Assembly: GCA_022842465.1 (NCBI GenBank)
Contig: JALHPN010000005.1
Coordinates: 1-64,000, forward strand
Origin: Polyangiaceae bacterium
GTDB lineage: Bacteria > Myxococcota_A > Polyangia > Polyangiales > Polyangiaceae
Direction of reading: 5' to 3'
DNA length: 64,000 nt
This document shows, one piece after another, positions 1,699 through 61,527 of this stretch. Under the pieces are notes generated by a model that was not told the origin of the DNA, made no database searches, and saw only the letters and a list, made by a program, of their open reading frames with translations. Numbering within the stretch: the first letter of the stretch is position 1; every line of letters starts with the position of its first letter. Both the position numbers and the translations under genes were made by a program.

Positions 1699-2541
1699 TC
1701 AGCGGTACGTGAAGCGGAGATCGTGATCGCAGATGCGGAAGACGTCGCCTTCGGCGATCTGCTTCCGCGCGATGCGCTGGCCGTTGTACTCGACGCCGTT
1801 CGTCGAGCCCATGTCGACCATGAAGTAGACGCCGTTCTGGTACTCGATCATCGCGTGCTGCCGCGAGACGTTCGGGTCCTTCAGCGTCAGGTCGCTCGAC
1901 TGCTTGCCGCGACCGATCACGAAGCGGTCCTTCGTGATGGGGAACTTCTCGCCCTGGTAGATGATGTTGAGCGAGGTCTGCGTGCCGAGCGACGAGCCGT
2001 TGTAGCCGCCGCCGGGGATCGGCGGCATCGACGCGCCCGTGCGTCCGCCGCGATCCCCGCGATCGGGGATCGGAGGCGGCGCGCTGCGCGGTGAGCTCGT
2101 CGGGGGCTGAGAACGCCCTTGGGGCATTCCACCCATCCCGCCGCGTCCGGGCGGCGGCATCCCGAGGCCGCTCTGCATCGAGCCACCGCCACGCGGCGGC
2201 GGAGGAGGTGCGGGGAGGCCACCACCACGTGGTGGCGGCGGCGGGAGGCCTCCGGGGAGCGGACGCGTCGGCATCGCGCCACCACCACCACCGCGCAGCG
2301 ACGGCGGCGGACCCATCGGCGGCGGCGGTGCTCCGCCTCCGCTCGCAGGGAACGAGTCGTTCGTACGCGGGTACGGCGTTCGCTGGCCGTAGCTACGCTG
2401 ACGCGCGTACTGCTTCATCGCTTCGTTGATCAGGTAGTCGACCGAGCACTCGAGCTCGCGCGCCATCTGCTCGAACGTCTCCCAGAGCATGTCTCTGCAC
2501 TGGAAGGTGCGTGGGCTCTTCTTGTTCGGATCGGCGCTCAT
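1699..2541 (-). CDS. RHH-FHA fusion protein: N-terminal ribbon-helix-helix-like segment, Gly/Pro-rich linker, C-terminal FHA domain
   Basis: Residues 11-47 (TFQCRDMLWETFEQMARELE and on to INEAMKQYARQR) read like a ribbon-helix-helix DNA-binding unit: one strand followed by two helices. Residues 70-185 are a low-complexity Gly/Pro/Arg linker. Residues 204-280 form an FHA phosphothreonine-binding domain with the expected GR (VIGRG), SRQH and STNG signatures. FHA domains read Ser/Thr kinase output, and this window encodes three such kinases, so a phospho-dependent DNA-binding regulator is a fair inference. The start has a GAGG ribosome-binding site just upstream. A perfect 7-bp inverted repeat lies 23 bases before the start, fitting autoregulation. 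First gene of a probable unit with the two downstream minus-strand genes. Confidence 0.85.
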   Translation of the reverse strand: MSADPNKKSPRTFQCRDMLWETFEQMARELECSVDYLINEAMKQYARQRSYGQRTPYPRTNDSFPASGGGAPPPPMGPPPSLRGGGGGAMPTRPLPGGLPPPPPRGGGLPAPPPPPRGGGSMQSGLGMPPPGRGGMGGMPQGRSQPPTSSPRSAPPPIPDRGDRGGRTGASMPPIPGGGYNGSSLGTQTSLNIIYQGEKFPITKDRFVIGRGKQSSDLTLKDPNVSRQHAMIEYQNGVYFMVDMGSTNGVEYNGQRIARKQIAEGDVFRICDHDLRFTYR

Positions 2542-2564
2542 CCCTCGACCGCCCTTTGGGCCAT

Positions 2565-2585
2565 ACGAGAAAAATACGTTCTCGT
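2565..2585. promoter_or_regulatory. Inverted repeat ACGAGAA-N7-TTCTCGT in the leader of the RHH-FHA gene
   Basis: Perfect 7-bp arms separated by seven bases, in a locally AT-richer patch, 23 bases upstream of the RHH-FHA start codon. A second short dyad (GCCC-TTT-GGGC, 2551-2562) lies between it and the start. Ribbon-helix-helix proteins commonly bind such repeats at their own promoters, so this is a candidate autoregulatory operator. It could equally be an mRNA leader hairpin. Confidence 0.4.
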
Positions 2586-2677: not shown

Positions 2678-4282
2678 TCAGTGCTCCATCGTCTGGAGGA
2701 GGCAGAACTTCACGAATTCCCCGACGGTCTTGAGCTCCTTCGGCTCCATCTCCTTCGAGCCGGGCGCCTTCGGAACGTCGCACTGCCACGAGCACTCGTC
2801 CTCCTTCTCGCACTTCGGGAGGAGCGTCGGGTCGTCGGCGTGGCCCTGGACGGCGCCCTGGTCGGCCTTCTTGCCCTCCCAGAAGAACCCGAGCGCCGTG
2901 AGCTTCGCGCCGAGATCCTTGCTGCTCAGGTAGGGCTGGATGACGTCGCGCGGCTTCGGCTCGCCGGGCGCGGGCTCCATCTTCCGGATGAGCTCCCCGT
3001 ACGAGAGCGGCTCCGTCATGCCCATCTTCGTCGCCGACGTCTTCGGCAGGCGCGCCATGAAGTCGGGGACCTGCTTCGTGCCGACCGTGCGGAGGACGAG
3101 CGAGGCCGCGACCCAGCGCACTTTCCACTTCTTCGGCTCGAACAGCGTGTTGAGCTTCGGGAGGATCTGCTCCTTCGGGAACTCGCCGAGGCGCTGGAAG
3201 GCGACGTCGCGGACGGGATCGGGCGTTTCGTCGTTCTTCGCGATCCCGAAGACGCGCTCGAGGTCCTGCGGGTTGTTCTTGTCGACCCGGCCTTCGAGGG
3301 CGGCCAGCGCGAGGCGGCGCCGCTCGGGCGGCTTCTGCGCGTCGGCGGCGTACGTGAACAGCCACTCGACGACCGGCCTCCCGCCGACCTTCTTCATCGA
3401 CGGGAACACCTCCTCCGTGAGGCGGCGCTCCTGGATCTTGTCGACCTGGACGGCGACCTGCGCGTCGGTGGCGTTCGGGTTGTTCTTCGCGTTGTACTCC
3501 TTGACGACCTTCGTCTGCCCGTCGAGCCACTCCTTGGTGTTGTACCGGTTCGCGAGGGCGACGAGCGCCTCGGCCGTCTTCACCTTGGTCTGGTCGTCCC
3601 CGATGTCGGCGACGAGGGCGGCGATGCGGTCGAGCCGCGCCGTGTTCTCGTTGATGATCGACGGGAGCTTCTGCGAGCTCTCCGGACCGAGGTAACGCAT
3701 CATCTGCTCGACGCCGAACTGCTGCGAGCCGTTCTCGATGCGGTCCTCGAAGCCCGTCTGGACCCACTTGATCAGGGCCGAGCGGAGCTCCTTCCGGGTC
3801 GCGTCGTTCGAGACGAGCGTCGGCTCGTGGCTGAGCATCGCGAACGTCGCGTCCTTGAACGGGATGGTCGGGTCGGGCGGGAGGCGCCCCTCGGGCGTCC
3901 GCGGCGGGGGCGGATCCGACAGCGTCTTCACGAGGTCGTCCTTCATCGCGTCGACGAGCTGGCGTCGCGACTCCTCGTCGAGCTGCACCAGCGCGCCGTC
4001 GCGCTCCTCGCCCGCGTCGTCCTTGTACTTGTCGGTCAGGAACTTGATGCCCTGACGGACGCCTCCCCGCGGCGGCATCCGCACGAGGGAGATCGCCGCT
4101 TTCTTGCGGAGATCGAGGCTGTACTTGTCGTGCGTGATGACGGCGACGAGCTTGAACGGCCCGTGCTGCGTCGTCTCCCAGCGAACGACGTCGCTCTCTG
4201 CCACGCGGCAGCCGGTGGCAGTGGCCCCCAGCGCAGCCAGCGCAGCGAGGAGGATTGCCCGACCCCTCTTCCCTTCGATCAT
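2678..4282 (-). CDS. Large predicted lipoprotein with HEAT-like helical body
   Basis: The 534-residue product has a charged start (MIEGKRGR), a hydrophobic stretch and a lipobox-like TATGC ending at Cys25, so it should be exported and lipidated. No family is recognised with certainty. The body is rich in repeating helical units about 35-45 residues long (for example the segments around LVALANRYNTKEWLDGQTK, RRRLALAALEGRV and LNTLFEPKKWKVRWVAASLV), resembling HEAT repeats used for protein binding. The last 60 residues contain two close cysteines (CEKEDECSWQC), suggesting a disulfide. The gene stands alone on the minus strand, 136 bases ahead of the FHA gene and divergent from ftsK. Real gene; function unknown, probably an envelope scaffold. 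Confidence 0.8.
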   Translation of the reverse strand: MIEGKRGRAILLAALAALGATATGCRVAESDVVRWETTQHGPFKLVAVITHDKYSLDLRKKAAISLVRMPPRGGVRQGIKFLTDKYKDDAGEERDGALVQLDEESRRQLVDAMKDDLVKTLSDPPPPRTPEGRLPPDPTIPFKDATFAMLSHEPTLVSNDATRKELRSALIKWVQTGFEDRIENGSQQFGVEQMMRYLGPESSQKLPSIINENTARLDRIAALVADIGDDQTKVKTAEALVALANRYNTKEWLDGQTKVVKEYNAKNNPNATDAQVAVQVDKIQERRLTEEVFPSMKKVGGRPVVEWLFTYAADAQKPPERRRLALAALEGRVDKNNPQDLERVFGIAKNDETPDPVRDVAFQRLGEFPKEQILPKLNTLFEPKKWKVRWVAASLVLRTVGTKQVPDFMARLPKTSATKMGMTEPLSYGELIRKMEPAPGEPKPRDVIQPYLSSKDLGAKLTALGFFWEGKKADQGAVQGHADDPTLLPKCEKEDECSWQCDVPKAPGSKEMEPKELKTVGEFVKFCLLQTMEH

Positions 4283-4346
4283 GTCTCCCTCGGCGGAGAC
4301 CGAACTCTACTGAGCTTCGTGAAAATACCCAAGCCTGGTTCCAAGT

Positions 4347-4376
4347 TTGACTCGCCCCGAGGACCTCCGATAGCGT
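4347..4376 (+). promoter_or_regulatory. Candidate sigma-70-type promoter for ftsK
   Basis: TTGACT and TAGCGT are separated by 18 bases, with the likely transcription start close to the ATG at 4397. A near-direct repeat (GTCGATGTAG, GTCGACGTAG) lies between the -10 box and the start codon. The -10 box is a poor match, so this is only a candidate, though it is the best in the 114-base divergent gap. Confidence 0.35.
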
Positions 4377-4396
4377 CGATGTAGGTCGACGTAGGT

Positions 4397-7300
4397 ATGG
4401 CAATCCTCAGCCTCTTCGCAGGAAACCGAGCTCGGCGCGTCTCTCCGCCAGGCTCTTCCGACTCCGCCTCGCCGGACGAGCCCGTGTCCGAGGTGCTGCC
4501 GCGCGCACCCTCGGCGCGCGGAGGGGACGCGGTCTTCGCGCCGCGTCGGCCTGCGTTCGCGCTGCCGGCGAACACGAAGCTCCCGAGCGTCATCGGCTCG
4601 CAGCCGCCGACGTTCGCGCGCGGTCGCGAGGCGTGTGCGCTGATCCTCTGGACGTTCGCCGTCTTCCTCTCGCTCGCCCTCGCGTCCTACGCCGGCGATC
4701 CGCAGATCGCGCCCGGCGCGGTCCTCCCCGAGGGGGCGGCCGCGATCAAGGGCGAGGACTGGGTCGGCCCCGTCGGCGCGTTCTTCGCGCGCGGCATCGT
4801 CGGTCTCGTCGGCCTCGCCGCGTGGGTCATGCCGCTCGAGGCGCTCCTCCTCGGCATCCCGTTCGTGCGCAGCCGTCGGAGCAACGCCACGCCCGCGCGC
4901 ATGGCTGGCGACGTGCTGATGGTCGTGATCGGCGCCGCCCTCGTGCAGGTCGGTTGGCCGGGGAAGACGGCGTTCGGTCACCACCCCGCGGGCGGGCTCG
5001 TGGGCGAGCTCTTCGGCGAGGTCGCGCGCTCGCTCTTCTCGACCGTCGGCTCGTTCCTCGTCGGCTTCGCGATGATCGGGCTCATCCTGATCGGCCGCGC
5101 TTCGTTCTCGTTCATCGCCCTCATGCGATGGCTCGCGCGCATCTTCCACCTCTCGGCCGAGCGCACCGCGAACGGCGCCCGCTCCGTCGCCGACGCCTGG
5201 GCGAAGGCGCGCGAGCTGGAGCGCGAGCGCGCGGAGGAGCAGCGGAAGGCCGACGAGCCCGTCATCGCGATCCCCAGCGGCGACGAGGCGACGATCCTCG
5301 CCGGCGCAGCCGAGAGCGACGAGGAGCCGGGCTGGGAGGAGCCGAGCGCGCCGCGCCTCAAGGTGCGGCCCGCGCCGACCGAACCCTTCCCCGAGGTGAG
5401 CCCCCTCGTCGTCCCGTCTGCCGGGAGCGCTGCCCCGCTCGTCATCCCTCCGCCTGCGGAGGTGAAGAAGCTCCCGCGCGCGCGGCGCCGGATCCAGGAG
5501 AAGGAGGTCCTCGCGGCGGCGGGGACCGCGGATGCCGCCGCGATCGTCCTCGGCCCGGTCCTCGCGGAGGACGACGACGACGATGTGGCGCCGGAGTCCC
5601 TTCCCGACGCCGACGACGGCCTCGCGGTCGCCAAGAAGGGACGGAAGAAGGTGGGCGCCGCCTCCGGGACGCTCGCGCGTACGGCCGACGGCGCGAAGAA
5701 GCGCCGCCGCACGGACGACGAGGACGCGGACGCGAGCGAGGAGGTCCTCGCCGCAGCCGAGGACGGTCACGACGCCGACGCGGACGAGCCGGACGAGGAC
5801 GAGGACGCGCCGCCGACGAAGCTCGACGTGACGCCCCTCGAGGGCCTCGACGCCGCGAAGAAGCGACCCTCGCGCAACGCCGCTCCGAAGAAGGCCGAGG
5901 CGGGGATCACGATCGTCGACACGTCCGCCGCCCTCCAGAAGGACGCGCCGATCTCGCCCGCCTCGCCCGAAGCACCGGGCGAGCGCGAGATCGTCAAGGT
6001 GATCCCGGCGAAGAAGACGAAGAACGCGCCGTTCCAGCTTCCCCCGCTCGACATGCTCGAGCCTGCGCAGCCCTCGATCGGCCCGATGTTCGACGAGGCC
6101 AAGCTCCGCGCGAACGCCGAGCTCCTCGTCAAGACGCTCGCCGACTACAAGGTGATCGGGAAGGTCGAGGAGATCCTCCCTGGCCCCGTCGTCACCACCT
6201 TCGAGGTGTCGCCGGTCGCGGGCACCAAGGTCAGCAAGGTAGCGGCGCTCGCCGACGACCTCGCCCTCGCGCTCGCGAAGAAGGTCCGCATCGTCGCGCC
6301 GATCCCGGGCAAGAACCGGATCGGCTTCGAGCTCCCGAACGAGAAGCGCGTCCCCGTCATCTTGCGCGATCTCGTCGAGGATCGACGCTTCCAGAGCCTC
6401 GACGTCCCCCTCCCGGTGGTCCTCGGCCGCGACATCGTCGGGAACCCCGTCTACGCCGATCTCGCCAGCATGCCTCACGCGATCGTCGCGGGCGCGACCG
6501 GGGCCGGCAAGAGCGTCGGTCTGAACGTCATGCTCACGTCGCTCCTCTTCCGGCGCACGCCCGAGGAGCTTCGCATGCTCATGATCGATCCGAAGGTCGT
6601 CGAGCTTGCGCCGTACGACCGCATCCCGCACATGCTCCTGCCGGTCGTCACCGACATGAAGCAGGCGGCGACCGCGCTGAAGTGGGCCGTCGACGAGATG
6701 GAGCGCCGGTACCAGCTGTTCGCGGACGCCGGCACGAAGAACATCGGCACCTACAACGGCTGGGTGAAGAAGGTCCTCGCCGGCGAGATCAGAAACCCGC
6801 TCGGCAAGGCCATCGTCGGCAAGGACTTCAACGGGATCCAGGAGGTCCTGCGCGTCCGCGACGACGCCGAAGACGGCGAGCAGATGGTGCCCGAGATCCT
6901 GCCGATGATCGTGATCGTCGTCGACGAGTTCGCCGACCTCATGATGCAGCAGGGCAAGGAGGTCGAGGCGTGCGTCGCGCGTCTCGCGCAGAAAGCGCGC
7001 GCGGCCGGCATGCACGTCATCCTCGCGACGCAACGTCCGAGCGTCGACGTCATCACCGGCATGATCAAGGCGAACTTCCCGACGCGGATCGCGTATCGCG
7101 TCGCGCAGAAGATCGACTCGCGCACGATCCTCGACGAGCAGGGCGCCGAGCACCTCCTCGGCAAGGGCGACATGCTCATCAAGCTGAACGGCACGAACGA
7201 GACGCGTCGCGTCCAGTGCCCGTGGGTGAGCGAGGAGGAGGTCCAGCTCGTGACGGACTTCCTCCGCGCGCAGGGCGAGCCGGTCTACGACGACAACATC

Positions 7301-7543
7301 CTCAAGCCGCGCGACGACGACGAGGCCGCCGAGACGGAGGACGATGGTGAGCTCGATCCAATGTACGACGACGCCGTCCGCATCGTCGCCGACACACGCC
7401 GCTGCTCGACGTCGTGGCTCCAGCGAAAGCTCGGGCTCGGCTACAACCGCGCCGCCCGCATCGTCGAGACGATGGAGCGACGTGGGCTCGTCGGCCCCGC
7501 GAACGGCGCGAAGGACCGCGAGGTCCTCATCGCCACGATCTGA
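4397..7543 (+). CDS. ftsK: FtsK/SpoIIIE-family DNA translocase
   Basis: A 1048-residue septal DNA pump that moves chromosome ends through the closing division septum and activates dimer resolution. Four membrane segments lie at about residues 80-100, 128-155, 168-190 and 212-240. A long acidic, Lys-rich and probably disordered linker runs to about residue 560. The motor domain has Walker A GATGAGKS at residues 699-706 and Walker B IVIVVDEFADLM near residue 840. The C-terminal gamma winged helix (about 985-1045, with STSWLQRKLGLGYNRAARIV) reads polar KOPS-like sites. The segment between Walker A and B carries a charged insertion (about residues 790-835) ahead of VPEILP. Length is between E. 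coli FtsK (1329) and SpoIIIE (787). The ATG is the only convincing start. Confidence 0.97.
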   Translation: MAILSLFAGNRARRVSPPGSSDSASPDEPVSEVLPRAPSARGGDAVFAPRRPAFALPANTKLPSVIGSQPPTFARGREACALILWTFAVFLSLALASYAGDPQIAPGAVLPEGAAAIKGEDWVGPVGAFFARGIVGLVGLAAWVMPLEALLLGIPFVRSRRSNATPARMAGDVLMVVIGAALVQVGWPGKTAFGHHPAGGLVGELFGEVARSLFSTVGSFLVGFAMIGLILIGRASFSFIALMRWLARIFHLSAERTANGARSVADAWAKARELERERAEEQRKADEPVIAIPSGDEATILAGAAESDEEPGWEEPSAPRLKVRPAPTEPFPEVSPLVVPSAGSAAPLVIPPPAEVKKLPRARRRIQEKEVLAAAGTADAAAIVLGPVLAEDDDDDVAPESLPDADDGLAVAKKGRKKVGAASGTLARTADGAKKRRRTDDEDADASEEVLAAAEDGHDADADEPDEDEDAPPTKLDVTPLEGLDAAKKRPSRNAAPKKAEAGITIVDTSAALQKDAPISPASPEAPGEREIVKVIPAKKTKNAPFQLPPLDMLEPAQPSIGPMFDEAKLRANAELLVKTLADYKVIGKVEEILPGPVVTTFEVSPVAGTKVSKVAALADDLALALAKKVRIVAPIPGKNRIGFELPNEKRVPVILRDLVEDRRFQSLDVPLPVVLGRDIVGNPVYADLASMPHAIVAGATGAGKSVGLNVMLTSLLFRRTPEELRMLMIDPKVVELAPYDRIPHMLLPVVTDMKQAATALKWAVDEMERRYQLFADAGTKNIGTYNGWVKKVLAGEIRNPLGKAIVGKDFNGIQEVLRVRDDAEDGEQMVPEILPMIVIVVDEFADLMMQQGKEVEACVARLAQKARAAGMHVILATQRPSVDVITGMIKANFPTRIAYRVAQKIDSRTILDEQGAEHLLGKGDMLIKLNGTNETRRVQCPWVSEEEVQLVTDFLRAQGEPVYDDNILKPRDDDEAAETEDDGELDPMYDDAVRIVADTRRCSTSWLQRKLGLGYNRAARIVETMERRGLVGPANGAKDREVLIATI

Positions 7544-7581: not shown

Positions 7582-7672
7582 ATACCCGGCCCGCAGGGAA
7601 CTCCGCGTCCGGTCGCGCTCTTTGGTACGCTCGGCGCGTGGGGGGCCTGTCGCGAACGAGGGTTCTTCGCCC

Positions 7673-8998
7673 GTGAACAGCGGGCGCAAGGATCCGGACA
7701 CGAACACCAAGAACCTGCGCATCATCGCAGGGGAGTGGCGCATCGCCCGTCGCCTCGGTCGCGGCGGCACGGCGAACGTCTACCTCGCGGTGCACGTCGT
7801 CGACGGGCGCCGCGCGGCGCTGAAGATCCTCCGGCGCGAGCTCGTCGGGCAGAAGCCCCTCGTCCGCCGCTTCCTCCGCGAGGCGGAGCTGACGGCCAAG
7901 ATCCGTCACCCGGGCGTCATCCACATCCACGGCCACGGCACGGTCCAGGACGGGCGACCGTACATCGTCGCAGAGCTCCTCGAGGGCGAGACGCTGGACG
8001 AGCGGAGGATCGCCTCCCCGCAGAAGCGACTCGACTGGCAGGAGGTCGTGTCCGTCGGCATTCGCATGCTCGAGGCGCTCGACGTGGCCCACGAGAAGGG
8101 GGTCGTGCACCGCGACGTGAAGCCGACCAACGTGTTCGTGACGACGACCGGGGTGGTGAAGCTCCTCGATTTCGGCATCGCGGGCCTCGGCGAGGACTCG
8201 AGCGTCCTCGAGAACGACAACACCCGCACGGCGCTCGGGATCGGCACCCCCCTCTTCATGGCGCCGGAGCAGCTCACGGGCGACGACGCGATCGACGGGA
8301 GGGCGGACCTCTTCGGGGTCGCCGCGACCCTCTTCCATGCGATGAGCGGTCGTGTCCCGTTCGGGACGTCGTCCTTCTCCGTCGGCGCGCTCATCGCGGC
8401 GTACGCGGGCGGGCCTGCCGACTTGCGCGAGCTCGTGCCCGCCGTGCCGCGCCAGGTCGCGCGGGTGATCACGCGTGCGCTCGCCATGCGGCCCCGCGAG
8501 CGCTTCGCGTCGGCGAACGACATGAAGGTCGCCCTCGAGACGGCGCTCGACGCTGCCGCCTCGCTGAAGCCGGTGACGCGGCCGCAAGTTTGGCTCGATC
8601 AGACCGCGCCGCTGCCGACGGTGCGGAGGATGGCGGTCGCTTCCGTGCATCCGCCGACGACCACCCCGCCGAGCGGCGAGGCGCCTGCCGCGTCGGCGGC
8701 CCGCTCTTCCTCGAACCCCGCGATCTCGGCGCCGGTCTCGTCGCCGCCGCTCACGCCGGCGAACCGGCTCGCGCAAGGCTACGGATCGATGCCGCCGGCC
8801 GACGAGATGAGCGCGCTGTCGCGTCCGCCGCGTCCGACCTCGCAGCGGCCGCATCCGGGCCCGCCTCCGCCCGATCTCTCGAACGTCATGCCTCCTCTGC
8901 AGCCGGCGGCTCGCCCGCCGACGTCGATGGCGGTCCCGTTCCTCATCGTCGCGCTCGTGCTCGTGGTCGCGACCGTGCTCGCGATGCGGCTCCGCTGA
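7673..8998 (+). CDS. Membrane-anchored eukaryote-like Ser/Thr protein kinase
   Basis: The PknB-type kinase domain covers residues 12-280, with glycine loop GRGGTANV, ATP lysine in ALKIL, catalytic HRDVKPTN (Asp148), DFG (Asp166) and APE as MAPEQ. A Pro/Ser-rich juxtamembrane tail follows, then one hydrophobic segment at the extreme C terminus (VPFLIVALVLVVATVLAM) that anchors the kinase domain in the cytoplasm with almost nothing outside. I chose the GTG at 7673 because GAGGG precedes it by 10 bases; an in-frame TTG at 7622 lacks a ribosome-binding site. All catalytic residues are intact. Substrates are unknown; the nearby FHA protein is a candidate partner by family logic only. Confidence 0.93.
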   Translation: MNSGRKDPDTNTKNLRIIAGEWRIARRLGRGGTANVYLAVHVVDGRRAALKILRRELVGQKPLVRRFLREAELTAKIRHPGVIHIHGHGTVQDGRPYIVAELLEGETLDERRIASPQKRLDWQEVVSVGIRMLEALDVAHEKGVVHRDVKPTNVFVTTTGVVKLLDFGIAGLGEDSSVLENDNTRTALGIGTPLFMAPEQLTGDDAIDGRADLFGVAATLFHAMSGRVPFGTSSFSVGALIAAYAGGPADLRELVPAVPRQVARVITRALAMRPRERFASANDMKVALETALDAAASLKPVTRPQVWLDQTAPLPTVRRMAVASVHPPTTTPPSGEAPAASAARSSSNPAISAPVSSPPLTPANRLAQGYGSMPPADEMSALSRPPRPTSQRPHPGPPPPDLSNVMPPLQPAARPPTSMAVPFLIVALVLVVATVLAMRLR

Positions 8999-57946: not shown

Positions 57947-59337
57947 GCGAGGTCCGCTTCGGCGCCTACCGCATCGTCGAGACGATCGGCCAGGGAGCCG
58001 TGACGACGCTGTACAAGGCGGTCCAGGAGCCGCTCGGTCGGGTCGTCGCGGTCAAGGCGCTGAAGACGCAGATCGCGCCGACGTCGTCGTTCGGCGCGCA
58101 GATCGAGCGCGAGGCGAAGATCCTCGCCGGGCTCGCGCATCCGAACGTCGTCCTCGTTCTGGACCACGGTCGCGGGGCGTCGGGACGACCCTATCTCGCG
58201 CTCGAGCACGTCGATGGGCCGTCTCTCGACGCGCTCCTCGCGAAGCGCAAGCGGCTCCCGGTCTCGGTCGCGATCGCGATCGCGATTGGCATCACGCGCG
58301 CGCTCGAGCACGCCCACGAGCGCGACGTCGTGCATCGTGACGTGAAGCCCGGCAACGTCCTCCTCGCGAAGAGCGGTGTCGTGAAGCTGGTCGACTTCGG
58401 CATCGCGCACAAGACGCGAGGGGAGGTGGAAGGCGAGGAGCACGGCGAGGTCCTCGTCACCCCCTCGGGGCGGGTCACGGAGGAGCCGCTGGGCGACGGC
58501 TTCGGAACGCCCGCGTACATGTCGCCCGAGCAAATCCTCGGCGACTTCGTCGACGGGCGCTCGGATCTCTTCTCGCTCGGCGTCGTGCTCTATCAGATGC
58601 TCACCGGGACGCGCCCGTGGGAGTCCACCGCCGAGCGGACCCCGGGGAAGCGCGCGGGGCCGCCGCTCCAGCGCCGTGCGCCCCCCGTACCGCTCCGCGA
58701 GCGCGCGCCCGACGTACCGCGCGCCATCGACCGGATCGTGATGCGTCTCCTCGAGTCGGCTCCCTCGTCTCGCTATGCGAGCGCGGCGGTCCTCGGTGAG
58801 AAGCTCGAGGCCGCGCTCCGCGGGTCGACCCGCGAGCCGCCGCCGTCGGTCATCCGCGCGGCGCTCGTCGAAGCGGGGTTCGTCGCCGCCGTGCGCGGAC
58901 GCCCGAGCTCCGCGGGCGTGGAGATCTTGCCCGCGCAGCCGTGGTCCTTGGGCCGCGTCGTCCTCGGGTTCGCCCTCGTCCTCGGGCTCTTCCTGGCTTC
59001 CGTCCTCCTCGTTGCGCGGCCCTCGCGGGCGGGGAGCGCGCGCGTCGGCTCGGCGCCCGAGTCGCTCCTCGCGACGACCGAGGGCGCGAGCGGCGGCGGT
59101 CTGAGGGTCGTCGCGTCTCCGTGGGCGCACGTGCGGGTCGACGGTGTCCTCGTCGAGACGACGCCGTTCGCCCGGCCGATCCCGCTCGTGCCGGGCCGGC
59201 ACTGGGTCCAGCTCGGGCATCCCGATTCCCCGCCGGTGGAGCGCGAGGTCGAGATCGGTGAGGGCCAGATCGTGACGATCGACGTGACGATGCCGGTGGG
59301 CCTCTCCGACGCCGGCACGGGGAGGGAGTCGCCGTGA
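57943..59337 (+). CDS. Eukaryote-like Ser/Thr protein kinase with transmembrane segment and PEGA-like C terminus
   Basis: 464 residues. The kinase domain (about 1-290) has GQGAVTTL, AVKAL, catalytic Asp133 (HRDVKPGNVL), DFG at about 151 and MSPEQ. The loop after DFG is enlarged by about 25 residues. A transmembrane helix (GRVVLGFALVLGLFLASVLL) at about residue 345 is followed by an outer PEGA-type beta domain (RVVASPWAHVRVDGVLVETT and so on). All catalytic residues are present. Its ATG lies within the gpmI stop and its stop overlaps the LysM start, so the three are translationally coupled. Outside sensor plus inner kinase suggests envelope sensing. Confidence 0.94.
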   Translation: MSEVRFGAYRIVETIGQGAVTTLYKAVQEPLGRVVAVKALKTQIAPTSSFGAQIEREAKILAGLAHPNVVLVLDHGRGASGRPYLALEHVDGPSLDALLAKRKRLPVSVAIAIAIGITRALEHAHERDVVHRDVKPGNVLLAKSGVVKLVDFGIAHKTRGEVEGEEHGEVLVTPSGRVTEEPLGDGFGTPAYMSPEQILGDFVDGRSDLFSLGVVLYQMLTGTRPWESTAERTPGKRAGPPLQRRAPPVPLRERAPDVPRAIDRIVMRLLESAPSSRYASAAVLGEKLEAALRGSTREPPPSVIRAALVEAGFVAAVRGRPSSAGVEILPAQPWSLGRVVLGFALVLGLFLASVLLVARPSRAGSARVGSAPESLLATTEGASGGGLRVVASPWAHVRVDGVLVETTPFARPIPLVPGRHWVQLGHPDSPPVEREVEIGEGQIVTIDVTMPVGLSDAGTGRESP

Positions 59338-60267: not shown

Positions 60268-61527
60268 ATGCGAGCCGTGACTTCCGTGGGCGAGGTGATC
60301 GCCGGCCGCTACGAAGTGAAGGGGGTCCTCGGCGAGGGCGGCACCGGGATCGTGTACGACGCGGTCCGGCGAGAGGACGGGCGCGCCGTCGCGCTGAAGG
60401 TCATGCACCACGAGCTCGCCGGCGACGGTCAGGTGCGCGGGCGCTTCCAGCGCGAGGCGGTCATCCTCCAGCGCCTCTCGGGCCCGCACATCTGTCCCAT
60501 CCTCGACCACGGCGAGGTCCCCGGCGTGAAGACGGGGCGAAACATCGTCTACCTCGCGATGGCGAAGCTCGACGGGCCCTCGCTCGAGCGCGTCCTCCAG
60601 GACGAGGGGCCGCTGCTCCCCGCCCCGCGCGTCCTCGACCTCGTCCTCGACATCCTCGCCGCGCTCCGGGCTGCGCATGCGCAAGGCGTCATTCATCGCG
60701 ACCTCAAGCCGGCGAACGTGATCCTGGAGGGCGGCAAGCGCGTCGTCGTCGTCGACTTCGGGATGGCGAAGATCGTGACGGGCTCCGGCACAGGCACGAC
60801 GAACCTCACCGCGCACAACATGCTCTTCGGGACGCCCGAGTACATGTCCCCCGAGCAAGCGCGCGGCGACGATCCGGACGCGCGGTGCGACGTCTACGCG
60901 GTGGGCGTGATGCTGTACGAGATGCTCACCGGGAAGAGGCCCTTCACCGGCGCGACCCCCCTCGCGGTGCTCACGTCTCATCTCACGAGCGACCTCACGA
61001 GCCCGCGTACGGTCGCCCCCGATCGCCTCACGCCGGCGCTCGAATCGGTGGTCCTCCACGCGCTCGCGCGTGATCGCGAGCAGCGCTATCCGACGGCGGC
61101 CGCGCTCGCAGCGGCGCTCATGCATGCGCGGGCGATGCCGGACGACGTCGTCTCCCTCCGCCCCGAGGCGTTCTCGGCGCGGCCGGAGGGGACGGACGCC
61201 TTCGCGTTGACGATGCCGGCGATCACGACGCCGATCTCGCCGGACTCGTCGCCCCCTCTGCCCAAGCCTCTCCCCGTGAGCGACGCCTTCGCGAAGACGG
61301 TGGAAGGGACCGCGTCGGCGCCGGCGCCGGCGCCGAAGCCCACGGCCCCTTCCGGCCGCGTCACGCCGCCGCCCTCACGTGTCTCCGGCGCACCGGTGTC
61401 GTCGCCGGGGGAAGAGGCGAAGCGCCTCCGCGCGCGCGAGCGGGCCGAGCGGCGGAAGTGGCTCCTCGTCTGGCTGCTCGTCGCCTGCGTGAGCATCGGC
61501 GCCGGCGTGCTCCTCGCGCTCCGCTGA
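60268..61527 (+). CDS. Eukaryote-like Ser/Thr protein kinase with C-terminal transmembrane anchor
   Basis: 419 residues. The kinase domain (about 10-285) carries GEGGTGIVYD, ALKVMHHEL, catalytic HRDLKPANVI (Asp145), DFG as VVDFGMAKI and MSPEQA. A Pro/Ser-rich linker (about 300-390) ends in one transmembrane helix (WLLVWLLVACVSIGAGVLLA), with only a few residues beyond, so it faces the cytoplasm. One base separates it from the LysM stop. The kinase is distinct from the one at 57943, which has an outside PEGA domain. Last gene of the operon; the next gene runs the other way. Confidence 0.94.
   Translation: MRAVTSVGEVIAGRYEVKGVLGEGGTGIVYDAVRREDGRAVALKVMHHELAGDGQVRGRFQREAVILQRLSGPHICPILDHGEVPGVKTGRNIVYLAMAKLDGPSLERVLQDEGPLLPAPRVLDLVLDILAALRAAHAQGVIHRDLKPANVILEGGKRVVVVDFGMAKIVTGSGTGTTNLTAHNMLFGTPEYMSPEQARGDDPDARCDVYAVGVMLYEMLTGKRPFTGATPLAVLTSHLTSDLTSPRTVAPDRLTPALESVVLHALARDREQRYPTAAALAAALMHARAMPDDVVSLRPEAFSARPEGTDAFALTMPAITTPISPDSSPPLPKPLPVSDAFAKTVEGTASAPAPAPKPTAPSGRVTPPPSRVSGAPVSSPGEEAKRLRARERAERRKWLLVWLLVACVSIGAGVLLALR

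Follow-up and report, generated by a model that had tools for sequence, protein, structure and literature searches.

The window, by which we mean the whole stretch of 64,000 nucleotides analyzed here, contains an open reading frame with an ATG start (1699..2541, minus strand) that encodes a protein of 280 aa. This protein combines in one chain a predicted N-terminal ribbon-helix-helix (RHH) domain (residues ≈10–48; 2398..2514, minus strand), a Gly/Pro-rich linker (residues ≈56–186; 1984..2376, minus strand) and a C-terminal FHA domain (residues 208–270; 1732..1920, minus strand). The preceding gene on the same strand encodes a HEAT-like predicted lipoprotein of 534 aa (2678..4282, minus strand), and beyond it lie the divergent neighbor ftsK (4397..7543, plus strand) and a gene for a Ser/Thr protein kinase (7622..8998, plus strand). 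The stop codon of the HEAT-like gene and the start codon of the RHH-FHA gene are separated by a leader of 136 bases, which includes the inverted repeat ACGAGAA-N7-TTCTCGT (2565..2585). An earlier note on this DNA had proposed that RHH and FHA are fused in one protein, and this proposal is backed by the predicted structure, by the comparison of profiles and by the conservation of the pair in the phylum.

The FHA domain was found by Pfam (PF00498, E 3.4e-17; 63 bits against a cut-off of 20.7) and again in a search of the organism's own genome. Seven of its residues (G210, R211, S226, R227, H229, N248, and G249) are invariant in all 109 distinct FHA segments of relatives. The residue types Arg, Ser and Asn are named as forming the phosphothreonine pocket in the accessible part of PMC10470591, and they correspond to R211, S226, and N248 here. 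As these pocket residues are invariant in the 109 segments, the domain has very likely retained the ability to bind phosphothreonine. Of 154 open reading frames with the N-terminal domain, 130 also have the FHA domain; the FHA counts leave out the other 24, which lack a good FHA match. In 22 of these the frame runs to the end of its stretch, whereas the two in loci L047 and L087 end before that and possibly carry a frameshift. In the relatives the RHH and FHA domains are spaced 30 to 426 residues apart, with a median of 129. The window's own genome has 93 FHA matches, i.e., a large phosphothreonine-reading set.

A Pfam scan of the whole 280 aa protein returned FHA-type domains only, with nothing at the N-terminus and no RHH family. 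The N-terminus was modeled with AF2. A model that included the disordered tail reached a pLDDT of 74, and 33 of its 36 Foldseek matches were RHH proteins by title; the prediction was then rerun without the tail. The resulting monomer model of residues 1–52, made with an alignment (A3) of the window protein and 28 diverse homologs, has a mean pLDDT of 90.8 and consists of an extended stretch (residues 10–16), helix A (17–30) and helix B (34–48); DSSP assigns no strand in this monomer. The earlier note had set a two-helix RHH dimer at the N-terminus beforehand as one of the points on which its proposal should stand or fall, and as far as the monomer goes the model is favorable.

The best PDB match to the residues 1–52 model in Foldseek was CopG (probability 1.00, E 0.11), and 43 of the 50 top matches listed, out of 91, were RHH proteins by title. 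None of the Foldseek matches to PDB reached an E-value of 0.001 or better, which can be attributed to the small size of the domain. VIA gave Z scores of 6.0–6.8 over 43–47 residues against PutA, Arc, CopG, CdbA, and StnY, where Z scores below 8 may reflect merely a common arrangement. In both Foldseek and VIA the RHH structures cover model residues 7–52, and for CdbA (structure 6sbw, Z 6.0) VIA aligns these with CdbA residues 5–50.

Profile comparison pointed in the same direction. With hhalign, A3 matched an RHH_1 alignment built from RHH_1 proteins of related genomes (probability 91, E 1e-6). A PDB sequence search with A3 placed designed repeat proteins at the top, which is an artefact, followed by the RHH protein StnY (E 0.022) and CopG (E 0.33); the same search with alignment A1 gave chance matches only. 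Single sequences scored poorly. With residues 1–52 of the window protein, the matches to RHH_4 (E 0.072) and to RHH_1 (E 0.11) stayed below the Pfam cut-offs, and none of 29 members passed a Pfam RHH cut-off, the best values being 0.0028 (Antitox_RHH) and 0.0035 (RHH_4). The families most often matched over the 29 members, always weakly, were RHH_4 (11 members) and Antitox_RHH (5 members). Since no single sequence exceeds the Pfam RHH cut-off, the modeled N-terminus would represent a divergent branch of the RHH proteins.

The residues of the putative strand were compared in a leader set of 80 proteins, comprising the window protein and 79 relatives (locus L012 was dropped as the start lies outside the locus). 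All 80 proteins have R at position 11, F at 13, C at 15, and R at 16, while the outward positions 10, 12, and 14 are clade-specific (MHY in 30 proteins, A/P-T-Q in 35 and other residues in 15). This alternation fits what is expected for an RHH strand, in which the side facing the core is fixed and the side that reads DNA changes, although strand positions vary more among the distant members of the diverse alignment. Among 25 aligned members K8 and S33 do not vary at all and K7 hardly does. Because P, A, or M mostly occupies the exposed position 10, sequence-specific binding cannot be taken for granted. One N-terminus (L076, 3576–3740) looks like a hybrid of the two clade types, with an MHY strand and helices of the Polyangiaceae type, and possibly comes from a chimeric metagenome contig.

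The earlier note had suggested a search for the domain pair in other myxobacteria, and it was found there. A profile of residues 1–52 detected the N-terminal domain in 143/377 sampled genomes of the phylum and in 95/104 of those belonging to the class. By rank, the carriers are 34/35 genomes in the family, 36/36 in the rest of the order, 25/33 in the remainder of the class (among them four weak matches, with E-values of 3e-5 to 5e-4) and 48/273 in the remainder of the phylum. The best 80 of 84 matches of a contig profile search include Sorangium, Polyangium, Minicystis, Labilithrix, and Kofleriaceae, and Myxococcus xanthus is not among these 80. The gene is mostly single-copy, with one copy in the window's genome. 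One family (f4; L145, L146, L147, and L200) has two tandem RHH-FHA paralogs downstream of the HEAT-like lipoprotein gene, and their products could form heterodimers.

The strongest new fact is that the HEAT-like gene and the RHH-FHA gene form a conserved two-gene unit, a link absent from the earlier note. The HEAT-like gene is adjacent, co-directional and upstream in 107/125 loci, which are not independent counts because loci L081–L110 (L083 being the window) partly duplicate contigs already counted. Counted from coordinates, the two genes are next to each other on the same contig and strand in 67 of the 70 carrier genomes of the order, the exceptions being G036, G089, and G226. Within the order the RHH-FHA gene is almost always accompanied by the lipoprotein gene of 2678–4282 (minus strand). 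Of the 33 other genomes of the class, 18 have the HEAT-like gene. The partner is not exclusive, as weaker matches are found where no RHH-FHA gene is present (e.g., genome G001, E 8e-42), and beyond the class the two can stand apart (e.g., G007). A gene with a metallo-beta-lactamase fold lies downstream of the RHH-FHA gene in 10 loci (Lactamase_B E 9e-06 for the member in L133); outside the class such a gene often follows the RHH-FHA gene, in which case the lipoprotein gene does not precede it (L133, L135, L137, L141, L142, L143, and L116).

The HEAT-like assignment comes from a HEAT_2 match below the cut-off (E 0.00039), and the prediction as a lipoprotein from a lipobox with Cys25. Gly24 and Cys25 of the lipobox are invariant in five diverse members, and a lipobox was detected in 76 of the 78 HEAT-like homologs with the anchor motif. 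The leader between the two genes is ≤30 bases in 9/79 relatives, 31–100 bases in 31 and 101–300 bases in 39. A box pair picked out by eye, TTGGGT-17 bases-TAGAGT (4304..4332, minus strand), may be a sigma-70-type promoter of the two-gene unit, and a similar pair is visible before the HEAT-like gene in L005. The divergent ftsK (FtsK_SpoIIIE, E 7.9e-66) is on the opposite strand in all 44 loci that have both ftsK and a close HEAT-like homolog. Three window neighbors of the RHH-FHA gene were scanned and none of them is toxin-like.

The earlier note had also placed several kinases nearby. A scan for the catalytic-loop motif found three kinases in the window, all on the plus strand. The nearest (7622..8998; Pkinase, E 1.6e-36) is three genes and 5 kb away from the RHH-FHA gene and bears the statement out, but the other two, whose kinase domains (57967–58794 and 60310–61107, both on the plus strand) were located by the catalytic-loop motif and a kinase search, lie at 58–61 kb, i.e., ≈55 kb away. 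Three kinases in 64 kb are not striking, since the genome of 9.57 Mb has at least 154 kinase matches (a lower bound, as 150 of 280 candidates were scored), or one per 62 kb or more.

The nearest kinase is not a conserved neighbor either. Twenty stretches from relatives were examined, of which L182, L183, L187, L194, and L195 were left out because they have no called RHH-FHA gene and L197 has no ftsK; a kinase stands beside ftsK in only one (L186) of the 14 relatives with that region. An open reading frame with a kinase motif directly flanks the RHH-FHA gene in 5/130 loci, and here, too, the counts are not independent owing to the partly duplicated contigs. A kinase as constant operon partner was rejected on these two counts. 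There are individual exceptions, which favor a kinase link: in L143, notable among these five loci, a Pkinase gene (3014–4786, plus strand, E 3.1e-54) ends ≈130 bases upstream of the RHH-FHA gene on the same strand, and in L138 (5483–8203, minus strand) and L139 (5588–8323, minus strand) Pkinase genes are found upstream on the same strand, ≈0.6 kb from the RHH-FHA gene. The L138 and L139 kinases are fused to a sulfatase-modifying-factor-like domain.

The architecture can be compared with several known systems. The RHH repressors CopG, Arc, and PutA resemble the window protein in predicted fold and in the strand-helix-helix register, but they have no FHA domain. The operators of these repressors are known. 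The FHA-containing sigma-54 activators of Myxococcus also join an FHA domain to a regulator, but the other domains are AAA+ and Fis-type rather than RHH. EmbR from Mycobacterium tuberculosis, as described in the accessible part of PMC9239209, has a DNA-binding domain and a C-terminal FHA domain that joins Ser/Thr kinases to transcription; it differs in having winged-helix-like SARP-family and BTAD domains and in being encoded in an operon with the kinase PknH. Such EmbR-type domains are absent from the window protein (Pfam, AF2, Foldseek), which instead has the predicted RHH N-terminus and a low-complexity linker, and in the window no kinase is linked to it. SisArnA from Saccharolobus islandicus is an archaeal transcription regulator in which an N-terminal DNA-acting domain is joined by a flexible linker to a C-terminal FHA domain, with a zinc ribbon in the place of the RHH domain (PMC10470591, from the part accessible). 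EmbR and SisArnA can be regarded as precedents, since in both a transcription regulator carries an FHA domain.

The closest comparison within the myxobacteria is CdbA from Myxococcus xanthus. The available text of PMC7156744 describes an RHH protein with the same split between exposed (K8, S10, Y12) and buried (L11, F13) strand residues; this protein is small, binds c-di-GMP through the RHH domain and, as far as that text goes, has no FHA domain. RHH proteins with extra domains are known, as are FHA domains joined to DNA-binding domains. It is the pairing of RHH with FHA that looks new: no prior description was found in the literature searched, where the two co-mentions of these domains were unrelated.

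We consider it probable that we are dealing with a lineage-core regulator of the Myxococcota, which would sit on DNA as an RHH dimer, be tied to Hanks-type kinase signaling by the FHA domain and be co-expressed with the lipoprotein. From the computed fold, architecture, conservation and gene linkage we infer dimerization, DNA and phosphopeptide binding, co-expression, a kinase link and a direction of control, which might combine as follows. Residues 10–48 would form the RHH dimer, and its two-stranded ribbon would contact DNA with the exposed residues 10, 12, and 14. The two FHA domains of the dimer, held on flexible Gly/Pro tethers, would bind a phosphothreonine carried by a kinase, by a substrate of a kinase or by the linker of the protein itself, and phosphorylation would thereby recruit a partner to the DNA or alter DNA occupancy. 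The RHH-FHA gene is probably co-expressed with the preceding HEAT-like lipoprotein gene, and the lipoprotein may share the pathway. The protein would probably act at operators other than the repeat in its own leader.

This last point runs against the earlier note, which regarded the repeat as an obvious site for autoregulation. The repeat does exist as described, with perfect arms and 23 bases ahead of the start codon, and the protein could in principle be a local autorepressor that binds it, with phosphorylation causing its release or recruitment. Further points can be raised in favor of this reading: at ≤1 mismatch the window's own genome has 4 sites (the exact one and three others) versus 1 for a reversed control, one relative (L006) keeps one repeat half with an A/T spacer by eye, and perfect inverted repeats of unrelated sequence are present in 20/80 leaders (the window included) versus 104/1600 shuffles, an excess that may be overstated because the relatives are not independent. 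However, a perfect inverted repeat (arms ≥7, spacer 0–10) also arises in 199/2000 dinucleotide shuffles of the 136-base leader, so that one shuffled leader in ten equals it, and the window has 139 perfect repeats of this class, 18 of them with a spacer of 7. None of the 79 relatives' leaders comes within 2 mismatches of the repeat, even though close relatives share the exposed RHH residues; the best have 3 mismatches (5/79; L002, L003, L022, L044, and L071), compared with one leader at 2 and one at 3 mismatches for the reversed control. There is no second exact copy in the 9.57 Mb genome, and the three one-mismatch copies each fall within a long open reading frame, which in two cases has the best coding score. 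Across 57 genomes the repeat is not enriched (12 exact sites versus 13 for the reversed control), and among the carriers only the window's copy shares a contig with the RHH-FHA gene. The shuffles, the relatives' leaders, the own genome and the 57 genomes together led us to reject the repeat as an operator; it is probably due to chance, and we hold autorepression through it to be highly improbable. An RNA hairpin was rejected as well, as the fold of the leader is not notable (z −1.32).

The operator of the RHH-FHA protein is probably a sequence other than the 2565–2585 repeat. No motif common to the whole group was found in the leaders, and before the lipoprotein gene no 8-mer occurs in more than 11 of 74 upstream stretches. 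A palindrome, TTGAAA-TTC-TTTCAA, precedes the two-gene unit in the Sorangium loci L041, L047, L057, and L065 and in shorter form in L039. Judged from these sequences it is a candidate operator within that Sorangium clade only.

That a shared operator was found neither in the leaders nor before the lipoprotein gene agrees with a different reading, in which the protein is a low-specificity nucleoid-associated protein like CdbA whose FHA domain brings phosphorylated partners to the chromosome. The predicted fold is near that of CdbA, the gene is near-universal and mostly single-copy in the class and linked to ftsK and the lipoprotein gene, and CdbA itself, in the part of PMC7156744 available, is essential and binds multiple sites with moderate specificity. 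Likeness of fold does not show function, though, and the exposed position 10 is not basic whereas CdbA has K8, so that we think this reading rather unlikely. The mostly uncharged position 10 could also mean that the RHH domain serves for dimerization or protein contact only, as in antitoxins, which would make the protein a bivalent phosphothreonine adaptor that does not bind DNA. Several of the RHH structure matches are antitoxins, and GarA and OdhI are FHA proteins that work without DNA. The scanned neighbors that are not toxin-like speak against such an adaptor, as does the invariance of K8 and S33 and near-invariance of K7, since in RHH proteins the DNA backbone is contacted by the loop between the helices and by the beginning of the second helix (PMC7156744, in the part accessible). 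An adaptor of this kind therefore seems quite improbable to us.

The regulator reading that we favor can be extended more speculatively. The protein might be a phosphothreonine-gated global regulator of chromosome or transcription that serves as a common downstream reader for the many kinases that myxobacteria have, with a clade-specific face (T/Q versus H/Y) that co-evolved with its operators and a pathway shared with the HEAT-like lipoprotein; we offer this extension tentatively and regard it as doubtful. To our knowledge, few routes are known that lead from myxobacterial Ser/Thr kinases to DNA. A near-universal and mostly single-copy protein that combines a predicted DNA-binding fold with a phosphothreonine reader would be a testable candidate for such a kinase-to-DNA route, in a genome rich in kinase matches.
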